Made by a program: the position numbers and the translations under genes
Origin: Arenicola marina
Lineage: Eukaryota; Annelida; Polychaeta; Arenicolidae
DNA: 64,000 nucleotides
Direction of reading: 5' to 3'
Assembly (NCBI GenBank): GCA_964019135.1
Contig: OZ025248.1
Location: 15,569,574-15,633,573, forward strand
Notes under the pieces: model-generated
Told to the model about the DNA's origin: nothing
The model's database searches: none
The model's input: the letters and a program-made list of their open reading frames with translations, nothing else
Shown here: positions 18,112-57,000 of the stretch, piece after piece
How the letters are laid out: each line of letters starts with the position of its first letter
Position numbering within the stretch: the stretch's first letter is position 1

Positions 18112-18311
18112 NNNNNNNNNNNNNNNNNNNNNNNNNNNNNNNNNNNNNNNNNNNNNNNNNNNNNNNNNNNNNNNNNNNNNNNNNNNNNNNNNNNNNNNNN
18201 NNNNNNNNNNNNNNNNNNNNNNNNNNNNNNNNNNNNNNNNNNNNNNNNNNNNNNNNNNNNNNNNNNNNNNNNNNNNNNNNNNNNNNNNNNNNNNNNNNNN
18301 NNNNNNNNNNN
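18112..18311. other. Assembly gap, exactly 200 N
   Basis: A round-number run of N, so probably a placeholder of unknown true length. It falls in the region where the missing FERM_N exon could lie. No feature can be read across it. Confidence 0.99.
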
Positions 18312-45000: not shown

Positions 45001-48000
45001 GCGTAGCAAGTGACCGGGCGCAACAGGTCACGGGGCGTAACAGGCGTAGCAATTGACCGGACGCAACAGGTGCCATGTGGTAGGGCGTGACAGGCGTAGC
45101 ATTTGATCGGGCGCAACAGGTGTCATGTGACTTAGCGCAACAGGTCACACGGCGTGACTACGCGTACCCTGTGTAGCGGCGTGACTACGCGAACCCTGTG
45201 TAGCGGCGTGACTACGCGTACCCTGTGTAGCGGCGTGACTACGCGTACCCTGTGTAGCGGCGTGACTACGCGTACCCTGTGTAGCGGCGTGACTACGCGT
45301 ACCCTGTGTAGCGGCGTGACTACGCGTACCCTGTGTAGCGGCGTGACTACGCGTACCCTGTGTAGCGGCGTGACTACGCGTACCCTGTGTAGCGGCGTGA
45401 CTACGCGTACCCTGTGTAGCGGCGTGACTACGCGTACCCTGTGTAGCGGCGTGACTACGCGTACCCTGTGTAGCGGCGTGACTACGCGTACCCTGTGTAG
45501 CGGCGTGACTACGCGTACCCTGTGTAGCGGCGTGACTACGCGTACCCTGTGTAGCGGCGTGACTACGCGTACCCTGTGTAGCGGCGTGACTACGCGTACC
45601 CTGTGTAGCGGCGTGACTACGCGAACCCTGTGTAGCGGCGTGACTACGCGAACCCTGTGTAGCGGCGTGACTACGCGAACCCTGTGTAGCGGCGTGACTA
45701 CGCGTACCCTGTGTAGCGGCGTGACTACGCGTACCCTGTGTAGCGGCGTGACTACGCGTACCCTGTGTAGCGGCGTGACTACGCGTACCCTGTGTAGCGG
45801 CGTGACTACGCGAACCCTGTGTAGCGGCGTCACTACGCGTACCCTGTGTAGCGGCGTCACTACGCGTACCCTGTGTAGCGGCGTGACTACGCGTACCCTG
45901 TGTAGCGGCGTCACTACGCGTACCCTGTGTAGCGGCGTGACTACGCGTACCCTGTGTAGCGGCGTCACTACGCGTACCCTGTGTAGCGGCGTGACTACGC
46001 GTACCCTGTGTAGCGGCGTGACTACGCGAACCCTGTGTAGCGGCGTGACTACGCGTACCCTGTGTAGCGGCGTCACTACGCGTACCCTGTGTAGCGGCGT
46101 CACTACGCGTACCCTGTGTAGCGGCAAGACTACGCGTACCCTGTGTAGCGGCGTGACTACGCGTACCCTGTGCGTGACTACGCGTACCCTGTGTAGCGGC
46201 GTCACTACGCGTACCCTGTGTAGCGGCGTCACTACGCGTACCCTGTGTAGCGGCGTCACTACGCGTACCCTGTGTAGCGGCGTCACTACGCGTACCCTGT
46301 GTAGCGGCGTGACTACGCGTACCCTGTGTAGCGGCGTCACTACGCGTACCCTGTATAGCGGCGTGACTACGCGTACCCTGTGTAGCGGCGTGACTACGCG
46401 TACCCTGTGTAGCGGCGTGACTACGCGTACCCTGTGTAGCGGCGTCACTACGCGTACCCTGTGTAGCGGCGTCACTACGCGTACCCTGTGTAGCGGCGTC
46501 ACTACGCGTACCCTGTGTAGCGGCGTCACTACGCGTACCCTGTGTAGCGGCGTCACTACGCGTACCCTGTGTAGCGGTTGTAGTTAATGTTTGTCAACGT
46601 TTCGGTTTCAACATGCGACTCAGCAGCGATGTGTATGTCACGGGGATTTGAAGCGGATCTCTCTCTTAAGGGTGGCTATTATGAGGGTGGGTTGCACTTT
46701 CTGTTGATGTTTTCAAAATTCCTTTGGATACGAGTGTGCCACTTAAATGTCACTTTCACTTTCTAATTTGTGAAATTATTTATGAGCGTTGTTACTGGAT
46801 CTCTCGCCCGAACGTTGCGCCTTCGCCCCCTGCCCCCCCCCCCCGCCCCCCACCCACACACACTCTGTATGTATCTCAGTTGTGGGTTAAGTATTGCAAA
46901 CAAAACCTGCCCAAGTGTTGCTCTGACCTCGCCTGGAGTGGGGCATTCCCGCGCGATCACGTCCGGCGAGTCCCGCGTCAGTTTCTACGAGTGAATAATG
47001 GAGTGAGTCAGGGTTGGTATAGCACACCACGGGGCCTCTCCCTACCGCAATCCACCCCACCCCACCCTACCCCACCCCACCGCACTCCAAGGATGACCCC
47101 CCACCCTCGCTGACCCATCCCCCCCCCCTCCCCCCGCCCCCAAGCTGACCCATTTAACTGTATTATTATTAGCAGAAATCATATGTGTCAGATGCCGGTT
47201 TTAGTAAATCGGGAATTTGGTCCTTGGCTCAATATGTAGTATATATCTATATATACAGGCACCGAGGACTGGCAGTATCGTCGTGCTCGGTCGTTACAAG
47301 CAGGTCTCTCACCGTCGCTCCCGACCACGACCTTACTTTAACACCTTTACTAACCCACCCCGCCCAGCGTGCAGGGTGCGACCATGTTGAGGACCCCAGA
47401 GGAAGTTAGAAGTGCTCTCTCGTCACCCTGTCAAGATTTCGGTCTACTATTTTTTTTATCCCCCCCCTGAGGATGTAATAACAGGTGAGTCCAGGGGATA
47501 AGCGAGTGAGGAGAGGACCCTCTTGTGAGCTGTGTGTGTGCGCGCATAACGCCGGTTTCCTCTTCCTGTGTCGGGTTACTTTACTTACGACAAGACCCCC
47601 CCCCCTTCCCCAGGTGTGGGGGTGGTTAGCGTGGACACCGTGTGTGTTTGTCAACGGATATACCTTCATTGTTACCCTAGGGCTGTTCCCAGTGTATGGA
47701 GGGAAAAACCAGACCCATTGACTTTGACCTCTTTTATTTGCCATCGTTTCACTCCGTTTCCCTCCCCCCCCCCCTCGCACATCCCTGACCTTCACCCTGA
47801 AGAAGCACACCATGCGACCTTGACCTGCTGTGTGTCTTATGGTGCGTGGCGTCACTTGACTGTTTTGAAGCAACCTGGGGCGATATGGCTTTGGTTCAAT
47901 GAAGTAGCTTGTGTGAGACCTTGAGCGACCGTGGCCAAGAGGTAGCCTACTAGACTGCAGACCAACAGGTCGCGGGTTCGCACCCCGCCTGGGTGTGAAA

Positions 48001-51000: not shown

Positions 51001-54000
51001 ACACCAAACCCGCCGCCACGTGTCTGGATATGGTTTTCGCGGTTTTCTTCCGGATGGGATTACTTTACCTGGATTTTAACAGCTTCCCGCTGTGACCAAC
51101 ATCCGGCTGTGGTTGGGTCTGGAGGAGCGAGGACGGGGACTCCAGAGAGGTAGTCAGTCCTGGATGACACTGCCCGGGTGGGGGAGGCGGGAGAGAGAGA
51201 CGCCGGGTGTTAATGGGGGAGCCACGTGTCCCTCCCTCTCTTTTAATTATAACGGTGGATACCTGATAGCGGGGAGCAGGGTGCCACTGACCTCACCCCC
51301 AGGAAGGTCACACAGTGCCAGGCCGGTGATCATATCTGGCGGCGCCGCCTCTGAGACTCCGGGGCCCCCGGGACTCCCCTCCCCCCTTAATGCATACCAG
51401 AGATCCGGGCGTGAATCTTGTCTCCGCAGATAAAGCCACACTCTCTGGATTGTATGTGCAACGGGAGCGTCGCCCCGCCGGGACCGAGTCCAACCAGTGT
51501 TCCGGGATAGCAGCGGACGCATCCGCTCTTCGGGATCCCGAATTTCCTGGTTCAATCTGGATATCACCGTTGTCGTGCATATGGACGGCGATTTTCGGAG
51601 GAAGAAAGTTTCGTATTGAGACTATAATAGCGGCTGATACTGGGCTATAAAGCCGCCGCCCGCATGACAGACAACTACCAGCGATAATTGGTTACGTCGT
51701 TGCTTTGTGCACTGGCGTTGTGCCGACTTGCCGCCTAGGCAGATCCTCTGCTGTCACGTGGTCAGTCCCCAGTAGTCACGCGGTCAGTCCCCAGTGGTCA
51801 CGCGGGTCGGCGTTCACAGCCGCTATGTTATGGGAAAGCCGCTAGGGCGCGCGTCGAGACCCGAGCCATGCTCAAGTGGACGGTGAAGAACAGACTGTCT
51901 CAGGTACGAGTTCTGTCTCGGTTTGAAACGTGGATGGTCAGGACGAAAACGCGGGTACGAGTTGGTCGGTATCGAGTTAAAATGAGTACGAGTCGTGCTT
52001 GGTAGTATTTAGTATGTTGAAGGGTCGGACTGTTACAGCTGTACATACATGGCGGTGTGTATCTGTCGTCTCAGGTACGATGTGTCTCAGGAGGGGGGGG
52101 GGGGGGGGGCTTATACATATCGGGTGTAGCGGCCATGGCCATAAAGTGTATACATGCGTGTGTCATAAAACGAAGGAAATCAGGACTTGTATCATAAAAC
52201 TAAGGAAATCTGGTCCTTGGTGATTCCATGTTGAACATATCATATATGATTTGCATGGGGGGCTAGTGGGGGAGGGGGTGAATGTAGTCGTGATGGTATA
52301 GGACATTATTGTGGCTTGGCTGAGATATCTAAGTTCATATGGTTTGGATGGGGAGGGGGTGGATGGAGGGTATTTAGTCGTAATTGTATAGGACATGATT
52401 GTAGCGTGGCTGAGATGATCTATGTTCCAATGACTAGGATCAATGAGCCACTCATACAGGGTGTCTCTCAGGTGGTCACCGAGCGGTATTCTCGGGCGGC
52501 ACGGCTTAGTACATCGTGAGCCATGTTCTTCTCTGCCTGTTTGTTTCTAGCCTGAGTGTTCCAACAGGTCTATAGGTACGTGTGAGTGGTCTCTGGCGAT
52601 GTATGAGCGTCAGTACTGTTTGTCATCTTGTTGACGCGAGAGAGGGTGGTGGGCGCGAGCTGTAACACTGGCTATAGTCACCCACTGGACGCTGGGTTTA
52701 TGGTATATGGTTTGACTGGTAGAGATGAGATCTCCTTATGGCCGGGCGAGTAGACCAAGAACACGTCACTGGCTCTCTATAATGTATCGGGGTCACGTGT
52801 CAGTGCACCGTCACGCCTCTTAAGAGACACGAGACACGCGTTCCGATGTTCAAATCATATTTCCGAGAAATGGAGCGCCCGAAGATGCCTCACCGGATGC
52901 TCAAAATTACATCGAATCGAAAAGCTTTCCCGCCCACAGGCCAGTTGGTGCAGACGACTGTTCTCCTCGCTTAGGTGATTTCTTTATTTCTAACAATTAA
53001 AAGACTGGAGGTGAAGATTGTTGCGTGTCGTCCCGTGCGTGACGAGTGGCTCCCTCTCTCGGTTGCAGTCGCAGTTGCCGCAGGTGCGGTCTATGAGTGA
53101 GATCGCCGCCGATCTGAGCCAGAGTTCGACGTCACTGCACAGCTCTGTGACGTCAGAAGGCATCAGCCGCAGCAACAGTTCGCACAGCCTGACGCTCTCC
53201 ACCTACAACTCCAAAGTAGACTGTAAGTATCTCCCGTGCGTCCAGACAGTGTATGTACATCAGGTAGAGAAGTAGAGAGTGTGGTTACTTTTAAGTCTTA
53301 TTTGACTATAAATATATTAACGATTTCCCACTTTAGTTTGAAGCATAACTGCATATAGACTATTTCAATGTTTCATCATTCAAGCCCCAGATGTGCGACT
53401 TCAATGACTACCGACTTCCGGTTAGTTTGGAGACCGTATCCTAAACGGAGGAGTCAGTTAATGAAATCTTATCTGTGTCGGTAGTGGAAAGGAGGCCTCC
53501 CTTGTGTAGTGTAGTGGTTAGACGCCCGGATACCGAATCCGACGCGTGTTCCGTTCGGTCAGCCCTCATCCTCCCAGGAAGTTCCTTGGCCTTGTCTATC
53601 CTATACATGTACATACACTACCTACAACCACCATTTACATGTACTTGCTGTTACTGCTGCAGTGACGGCGGAGGCTATGTAATGATTGTGTGTTGTCTGT
53701 TTACAGTGACGGCGGAGGAGTTGGATGCTATGTAATGACGGTGTGTTGTCTGTTTACAGTGACGGCGGAGGAGTTGGATGCTATGCAATGACGGTGTGTT
53801 GTCTGTTTACAGTGACGGCGGAGGAGTTGGATGCTATGTAATGACGATGTGTTGTCTGTTTACAGCGACGGCGGAGGCGTTGGATGCTATGTAATGACGG
53901 TGTGTTGTCTGTTTACAGTGACGGCGGAGGAGTTGGATGCTATGTAATGACGGTGTGTTGTCTGTTTACAGTGACGGCCGAGGAGTTGGATGCTATGTAA

Positions 54001-57000
54001 TGACGGTGTGTTGTCTGTTTACAGTGACGGCCGAGGAGTTGGATGCTATGTAATGACGGTGTGTTGTCTGTTTACAGTGACGGCCGAGGAGTTGGAGGCG
54101 TCGCGCGCCGCACACAGAGACATGTACGCCGCGCTGAAGGCCCGCAAGGAAGCGCTGGAGGACGCCTTGCGCAAGAAAACCGAGGAACTCAAGGCGATAT
54201 GTATCAAGGAAGGGGTGAGTACGGTCACCCCGGCCACTGTCAACTCGCCCCACCCACTGTCAGGTCACTGTCGGCCCACCCCAGCCACTGTCAGCCCACC
54301 CCAGCCACTGTCAGCCCACCCCAGCCCCACCCCAGTCACTGTCACCCCGCCCAAGTCACTGTCAGCCCACCCAGGCCACTGTCTGCCCACCCCAGCCAGT
54401 CAGCCTACCCAGGCCACTGTCAGCCCACCCCAGCCCCACCCCAGTCACTGTCACCCCGTCCAAGTCACTGTCAGCCCACCCAGGCCACTGTCTGCCCACC
54501 CCAGCCCGTCAGCCTACCCAGGCCACTGTCTGCCCACCCCAGCCAGTCAGCCCACCCCAGCCACTGTCAGCCCTCCCCATCCACTGTCAGCCCACCCAGT
54601 CACTGTCAGCCCACCCCAGCCACTGTCAGCCCACCCCACCCGCCCACCCCAACAACTAATTTTGTTATTATAAAAATAGTTACGTTTTAAGTAACTTGTT
54701 TTGTTCTTTATTGTGTCTGGTGTAGACGTCTTTGCAGAAGAGCGAATTTTATGTATGGACAGTGTTGGATGTAGTATGGTTTCCATGGTTACGCAGGAGG
54801 TGACTGGGGAGCTGCCCGTGGAGACGCCCTTGGCTCCCGGGGAGCCTATACCACAGATCCGCCGCCGCATGGGCACCTCGTTCGCCCTCTCACCCAAGCT
54901 CTTCAACAGAGACAAGGCCTCGGAGGTAACTATGGTGACTGGTTGCTAAGGGAACCAAGAGCGCGAGCAGCGTTTTGTCTCATAATATGAGAGCGTTTAA
55001 TATTATTAGATTATATTTGATCTGTTTTTTGTTTAAAGTTTTTTTCATCCTTTATGGTATTCATATTTATTATATTTCAATAATCTCGGTTTTGAATGTT
55101 TGTATGCGTAAGTGGGTATATTAGATACTCGATCTATAACGAGGAGTATAATACATTACACAATATTCGTTGTTTTGCACAACTCAATATTATGTCTCGT
55201 GCCTTCCTGAGTCGTATTCGGGATTGTGAATTGAATGTGATCCCGATGTCGTGATCCAGACGGAGGAGATTCTGGCTCGGCTGGAACTGGACATGGAGAT
55301 CCAGGACAAGATCTCCAACGCCGCCTACCGGCTGGCGCACGACAAGTCCGTGGCGAAGAGTGTCCGGAAACAGCGAAAACAGCAGTACCACAAGGCCCAC
55401 CTCAGGGTGAGTGGGGGGAGGGGGTAGTACCACAAGGCCCACCTCAGGGTGAGTGGGGGGAGGGGGTAGTACCACAAGGCCCACCTCAGGGTGAGTGGGG
55501 GGAGGGGGTAGTACCACAAGGCCCACCTCAGGGTGAGTGGGGGGGAAGGGGGTAGTACCACAAGGCCCACCTCAGGGTGAGTGGGGGGAGCGGGTAGTAC
55601 CACATAGCCCATCTCAGGGTGAGTGGGGGGGGGAGGGGGTAGTACCACAAGGCCCACCTCAGGGTGAGTGGAGGGAGGGGGTAGTACCACAAGGCCCACC
55701 TCAGGGTGCGTGGGGGGGGGGAGGGGGTAGTACCACAAGGCCCACCTCAGGGTGAGTGGAGGGAGGGGGTAGTACCACAAGGCCCACCTCAGGGTGAGTG
55801 GGGGGGAAGGGGGTAGTACCACAAGGCCCACCTCAGGGTGAGTGGGGCGAGCGGGTACTAAGTACCACATAGCCCACTTCGGGTGCGTGGTGGGACGGGG
55901 TATTACCACAAGGCCTACCTCAGTGTGGTTGGGGGGAGCGGGTAGTACCACAAGGCCCACCTCGGGGTGAGTGGGGGGGAGGGGGGAGGGGGTAGTACCA
56001 CAAGGCCCACCTCAGGGTGAGTGTGTGGGGGAGGGGGGGTAGTACCACAATGCCCACCTCAGGGTGAGTGGGGGGAGCGGGTAGTACCACATAGCCCACC
56101 TCAGGGTGAGTGGGGGGAGGGGGTAGTACCACAAGGCCCACCTCAGGTTGAGTGTGAGGGGGGGGGTAATACCACAAGGCCCACCTCAGGTTGAGTGTGA
56201 GGGGGGGGGGGGGGTAATACCACAAGGCCCACCTCAGGGTGAGTGTTTGTGTGGGGTCGGGGGGGGGTATAGTACCACAAGGCGCACATGGTATCCTAAC
56301 AGTATCTGTTATTATGTGTTATTCGTGTTATGTAACTTATTCAAATTGTTATTCGAAACACGTGACCTCTTGTTATTCCAGTAACGGGACCTATCCTACT
56401 TGTTATTTCAGTTACGTGACATTGCAAAAAAGCTCAACGAATACCGGGAGAGATTGGGTCGAATACCCGTGGAGGCCCAGAGCTCGGTCGAAGGTAAGCC
56501 CCTCATGTCCCTCCACCCCCCCACCCCATCAAGTTTGTGGGGTACCCCCCTCCCTGGATGAGGATCCAGGACTCATAACGAGGGAAGAGATATCAATGGT
56601 CCAACCAACCGGTTAAAGTGACTACTCAGATTACGCTGCCCTCCACCTTCTCTGCACCCTTTATCAACGCCTCCCCCCCCCCCACCCTTCCCCCTGTTTC
56701 AAATTCCAACCTTATCTGGCCTTCCCCACTTATAGCTTACTCTTCCCCGTATACGGTTTTATGTGTCCTTGACCTCTGTAATTTTACGTTCTCGGTGGGA
56801 GTCCCCGCACCCGTGTTTCCTCGTGACGTCAGCACCCCCCCCCCCCTCCTCCTCCACCCTCCCCGCTATCTGTCCCGACAGAGATAGAGACACATTGAGA
56901 AACTTTCTGTTTCCATCTATTTTTTAGAAATAAGTTTGCTCATTTCAGCTGTATTTATTTTGCCGAGAGTATACCTGAAGTAGCAAGCATTGAAAGAAAG

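Follow-up and report, generated by a model that had tools for sequence, protein, structure and literature searches.

A Minisatellite over a Splice Donor in the CUPID Region of an Annelid FRMD4-Type Gene

The window, by which we mean the whole 64,000-nucleotide stretch of Arenicola marina DNA analyzed here, carries an FRMD4-type gene on the + strand. Its FERM and CUPID exons were located by tblastn with an FRMD4A protein as the query, and the many low-complexity chance matches that this search also returned were discarded by eye. Fourteen exons with exact GT-AG borders were placed by inspection, in a map that starts downstream of the first exons of the gene. Of the upstream exons, nine have FRMD4A alignments at E ≤ 0.02, another has one at 0.13, and one matches FERM_C in Pfam (E 2.4e-5). 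The following exons of the CUPID region concern us here.

54078 to 54214, + strand, CUPID exon K, whose real acceptor is the last of a series of array copies (splice sites, translation)
54797 to 54925, + strand, CUPID exon L (FRMD4A tblastn, splice sites, translation)
55260 to 55406, + strand, CUPID exon M, phase 0, with CAC CTC AGG at its 3′ end (FRMD4A tblastn, splice sites, translation); exon 14 of the preliminary description
56412 to 56493, + strand, coding exon N (LRDIAKKLNEYRERLGRIPVEAQSSVE), which carries on the frame of the CUPID region

When exons K, L, M, and N are joined, the translation matches Pfam CUPID (PF11819) with an E value of 3.6e-30 over residues 5–122, the match stopping within exon M. 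Exons M and N without K and L reach only 0.0086 for CUPID, which is under the cut-off, and several other sub-threshold families appear alongside. With the CUPID domain and FERM exons both present, the gene is placed among the FRMD4/CUPID proteins. A search of the assembly with the CUPID protein gave four matches (seven candidates scored), which are exons K, L, M, and N of this locus, and a PDB search with the CUPID exons returned no relative, a separate one giving only a weak SMC match. A run of 200 N, probably a gap in the assembly or sequence that was withheld, occupies 18112–18311 of the window.

The intron between exons M and N opens with a tandem array that begins inside exon M.

55384 to 56245, + strand, donor minisatellite (TRF: period 42, 19.7 copies); its last full unit extends to 56272
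55407 to 55412, + strand, first donor GTGAGT, the sole in-frame junction to exon N among 15 GTGAGT
56273 to 56299, + strand, partial, degenerate 21st unit with no donor

The preliminary description had proposed that the end of exon M and its donor are multiplied about 20-fold, and splitting the array at TACCACA indeed yields 20 full units plus the partial 21st. The units recur as described, at a spacing of 41–55 bp rather than the 42–50 bp first given. A unit is made up of the last 23 nt of exon M, then the donor, then a stretch rich in G. The exonic part reads TACCACAAGGCCCACCTCAGG with minor changes and is followed by a donor or the remnant of one, so that exon end and intron start are repeated together. 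GTGAGT is intact in 15 of the 20 units, and CTCAGGGTGAGT (CTCAGG/GTGAGT) is found in 14. The remaining five carry GTGCGT (two units), TTGAGT (two), or GTGGTT (one), so the recurrence of GTGAGT holds for three quarters of the array and the term "perfect" decoy donors was too strong. Units 1–3 are identical. Across the 19 later units, 14 of which keep an intact GTGAGT, mismatches number 6/114 at donor positions and 12/399 at exonic positions (Fisher p 0.25), where the two counts for unit 12, which has a 1-nt deletion, were manually set to 3 and 1. The lack of a significant difference between these rates supports neutral decay; selection on the decoy donors was considered and rejected on the same comparison. 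A decay with distance along the array was set aside, the Spearman coefficient being 0.42 (p 0.067), to which unit 12 contributes a value inflated by its shift.

The energy predicted for base pairing to the U1 5′ end lies between -11.1 and -12.7 kcal/mol in 17 of the 20 units, and the first donor scores -11.2 kcal/mol. Most copies pair as well as the first donor, and pairing strength does not mark the latter. The G runs reported earlier are present, with five non-overlapping matches to a G4 regular expression in the 1005-bp intron (55407–56411); the rest of the window has 43 on the same strand, and the opposite strand has 74 over the whole window. Since minisatellite copy number is frequently wrong in assemblies, we weighed whether the array is an assembly artefact, or a repeat collapsed and expanded, and give this almost no credence: the units vary by substitutions and by G-run length in irregular order, the contig is 77 Mb long in an assembly of 867 Mb, the 12 matches in the assembly fall at one locus, and similar arrays occur elsewhere in the same genome.

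The copies differ in their coding consequences. Past the first donor the frame runs V-S-G-G-R-G-TAG, as read previously. The 14 later GTGAGT donors would each add VSGGRG and then a stop, so that only the first of the 15 keeps the frame and use of any other would truncate the protein. The copies that adjoin the exons satisfy the flanking frame on their own, the first donor joining exon N in frame with no extra exon or intron, and from this coding continuity splicing at the first donor is predicted. For the later donors, the stop lies 21–811 nt upstream of the junction. Because this distance exceeds 50 nt in 13 of the 14, nonsense-mediated decay would probably remove such mRNAs. The predicted truncated product retains the Pfam CUPID match over the same stretch (E 2.6e-30), and loses the exon at 56412 and everything downstream.

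These properties could be read as a regulatory rheostat, in which later donors lead to a stop, giving degraded mRNA or a short FRMD4, and the copy number of the array sets the output. The 14 later intact donors share one truncated end, most copies pair with U1 as well as the first donor does, G runs are nearby, and exon K carries a similar, stop-bearing acceptor array; alternative transcripts do arise from boundary repeats in human genes (PMC2812944). Against this, 40–50 bp of intron easily yields stop codons, the donor positions are no better preserved than the exonic ones, five units have lost the donor, and the units of a second donor array, described below, read open in frame, so that stops are no general feature of such arrays. 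On balance, we regard the rheostat as unlikely.

Acceptors in the same region are also repeated.

53670 to 54096, + strand, acceptor minisatellite of exon K (TRF; 53 bp unit), with 8 copies of TGTTTACAG at 53707–54078
56317 to 56433, + strand, weak, degenerate repeat of the exon N acceptor (TRF row 56346–56392)

The multiplied acceptor two exons before exon N's predecessor was likewise noted in the preliminary description, and it is borne out: the acceptor and exon start of exon K are multiplied 8-fold, and each of the seven upstream acceptors leads to an in-frame stop. The copies of the exon N acceptor are far less exact, the best being at 56382 (21/30), with those at 56358 and 56328 at 18/30, and use of the copy at 56382 would produce an immediate stop. 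Two other arrays were seen nearby. A 20-bp array (CACTGTCAGCCCACCCCAGC) at 54226–54638 begins ∼12 nt into the intron downstream of exon K, and a 27-bp array of 53 copies (97%) at 45132–46593 generates spurious open frames of 482–483 aa on both strands.

Experimental work on multiple splice sites reports that splicing is inhibited when two 3′ splice sites are occupied at once, and that multiple U1 binding shifts 5′ site choice with efficiency kept unless the sites are very close (PMC5389562). By the former effect the exon K array would be the harder of the two to tolerate, with a greater disturbance of splicing expected from it than from the donor array. Since multiple occupied sites affect splicing, tolerance is not self-evident, chiefly for the 8-copy acceptor array.

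Two arrays on splice sites of one domain raise the question of whether borders are preferentially hit. In the FRMD4 gene, 2 of 28 borders have a copy at ≥24/30 within 1.2 kb against 3.2 expected, and 3 of 28 have one at ≥21/30 against 4.3 expected. The expectation derives from 400 randomly placed 30-nt probes across the region of the gene, 46 of which had a copy at ≥24/30 within 1.2 kb; these probes could land inside arrays, the donor and exon K arrays included. Counts at or below random expectation support neutral placement, and boundary targeting, for which the FRMD4 borders show no enrichment, was set aside as unproven. Tandem repeats with a period of at least 10 make up 15% of the window. 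In 264 kb of contiguous sequence their share is 29%, and no further array with the strong donor consensus tested was found there. A 20-copy donor array is far beyond chance; its placement on a splice site is not.

Genome-wide, triples of the donor word number 6850 against 1743 for the reversed word (3.9-fold), and single words 47279 against 26180 (1.8-fold). These figures are match counts, not arrays, and are inflated by large arrays. The array in FRMD4 is absent from them, as it reads AGGGTGAGT, which does not match MAGGTRAGT. A strong enrichment of single donors had appeared in the 264 kb (donor 11, reversed 2; outside repeats, 9 and 2), and was rejected as the genome-wide ratio is only 1.8. 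The variants CAGGTGAGT and AAGGTAAGT give 2660 triples against 830 reversed and 447 against 219, respectively, with the AAGGTAAGT triples falling in 19 arrays among the matches listed (100 of 447). For a scrambled word the counts are 5440 triples (1838 reversed) and 27444 singles (20940 reversed). The donor word has a triple-to-single ratio of 0.145; three control words have 0.067, 0.198, and 0.088. Triples of the acceptor word number 40341 against 22851 reversed, a word too short for interpretation. By these counts the donor word does not stand out, and a modest preference may exist.

The genome carries many arrays of donor words. At 605781–612276 of contig 1, ∼6 kb of 39-bp donor units follow an exon (51 residues of its translation were recorded) that matches 10-formyltetrahydrofolate dehydrogenase (ALDH1L) with an E value of 2.2e-25. 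The units read, those in locus L043, are open in frame with no stop to the end of that locus and encode a repeat peptide VSTARPLWCDKIQ and variants of it, so that later donors here could append repeat peptides, not a stop. At 1754360 of the same contig, 34-bp units begin where a lustrin-like, cysteine-rich reading frame ends (E 2.1e-5, just under the Pfam cut-off); units and frame have only the last few exonic bases in common. Among the matches listed, the first 1.75 Mb of contig 1 holds four donor-bearing arrays. Two of them sit at exon ends, one proven and the other probable; the one at 1094676 does not lie at an exon, and that at 331 kb was followed to a point short of its start. A scan of ALDH exon loci found a border copy at 1 of 11 (locus L051, a duplicated acceptor at 22/24, with the match at 647 kb). 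The scan covered 11 of 13 matches, the other two, at 51.23 Mb, being second copies of exons in the scan; L049, L051, and L054 had no donor candidate over threshold, so that the result covers less than the full set of borders.

In one explanation of these data, minisatellites in this genome start to grow preferentially at splice donors, with transcription or R loops at G-rich donors as possible routes. Donor triples exceed the reversed word 3.9-fold where singles do so merely 1.8-fold, which could hint at a preference; the CAGGTGAGT and AAGGTAAGT variants lean the same way, as do the proven and the probable exon end on contig 1. The scrambled word, however, has a higher triple-to-single ratio than the donor word, the FRMD4 borders are not enriched, just one of the 11 ALDH loci scanned has a border copy, and of the contig 1 arrays one is not at an exon and another starts beyond tracing. 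We therefore hold preferential seeding to be improbable. The combined proposal, that the 20-copy donor array and the stop-bearing 8-copy acceptor array form a switch by which copy number decides whether FRMD4 transcripts are full-length or targeted to NMD, with splice sites seeding many minisatellites genome-wide, seems to us more doubtful still. Overall, we saw no sign that the FRMD4 donor array is targeted to splice sites or retained by selection, in tests that are weak.

An intron of this kind had been called rarely seen, which overstates the case given the many donor-word arrays above and the published examples. In amphioxus, globin genes carry tandem repeats over intron–exon boundaries, and the cases in Adh3 were named "mirages"; many of the copies, not all, retain splice signals, and Adh3 data together with RT-PCR on globins suggest that regular splicing is undisturbed (PMC3087553). 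Further amphioxus mirages occur in TnC and PGBD5 (PMC3902484). The FRMD4 array resembles the mirages of Adh3, BflGb6, BflGb9, TnC, and PGBD5 in its minisatellite-like copies over boundaries, whether of donors or acceptors. Its unit of 41–55 bp falls within the reported range, 10–72 bp in Adh3 and 150–160 bp in the globins (PMC3087553). It differs in lying in an annelid, in its 42 bp period, and in having 20 copies, compared with 6 and 3 in the BflGb6 haplotypes. It also differs in that donor and acceptor arrays share one domain, and RT-PCR evidence belongs to the amphioxus cases.

In human genes within segmental duplications, variable minisatellites at exon–intron boundaries can give rise to novel introns and alternative transcripts, with units of 30 bp and 4 repeats on average; among 27 intron modifications, 66% also showed transcripts in which the repeat is retained (PMC2812944). 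Those repeats belong to recently duplicated paralogues with RNA support for altered splicing, whereas the CUPID part of FRMD4 is found once, and in the accessible text of the source the donor itself is not described as the repeated element. That human boundary repeats alter splicing counts against plain tolerance in FRMD4. The Rogers model of intron gain, to which both PMC3087553 and PMC2812944 refer, has AG/GT proto-splice sites duplicated in tandem and so likewise involves duplications that carry splice signals. Coding continuity in FRMD4 calls for no new exon or intron, although a minor form spliced from the copies may exist. Earthworm metallothionein genes contain intronic minisatellites (PMC12783039) and so offer, like FRMD4, large intronic arrays in an annelid gene; splice-site copies are not described in the accessible text of that report, nor in those of the reports on amphioxus huntingtin (PMC2206037) and on C. 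elegans minisatellites and alternative splicing (PMC4039745). Among the matches listed in our literature search, which covered the subscription literature in part, no annelid boundary-spanning case appeared.

The mitochondrial contig of the assembly (15,942 bp) has the gene series nad3-nad2-cox1-cox2-atp8-cox3 (nad2 through a general Proton_antipo_M match, atp8 through a match below cut-off). AGA codons stand at what we take, by eye, to be the usual serine positions. According to PMC2639372, only annelids and their relatives have nad3 placed between nad1 and nad2, and Sipunculus also shows cox1-cox2-atp8-cox3. The gene series found here, with nad3 beside nad2, thus points very probably to an annelid.

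Splice sites are paired across the exon in exon definition. Considering the above, we favor, with a probability of about 0.73, the view that the intron at 55407–56411 is mostly a mirage: neutral minisatellite growth over a donor, untargeted and tolerated through nearest-site pairing across the exon. The array would have been built by tandem duplication of a 42-bp piece that runs from the last 23 nt of the exon through the donor into the G-rich stretch. Its growth would be the ordinary growth of a minisatellite, by slippage or unequal exchange, not aimed at splice sites. The spliceosome would mostly take the copy nearest the exon body, which pairs with the upstream acceptor over the shortest exon, and aberrant products from later donors would likely be degraded. 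For exon K, a nearest-copy rule likewise picks the acceptor that closes the array; a first-transcribed, first-used rule fits the donor array only. That the first donor is not favored by U1 pairing counts against the nearest-copy account.

The FRMD4 donor array is a striking yet fairly ordinary example of a known boundary-repeat phenomenon. With it, an annelid joins the animals, lancelets and humans among them, whose genes carry minisatellites over exon–intron boundaries. Boundary arrays of this type may mislead gene predictors and the mapping of short-read junctions. The locus is also a natural experiment in splice-site choice, with as many as 20 nearly identical donors, and 8 nearly identical acceptors, offered to the spliceosome within one domain.
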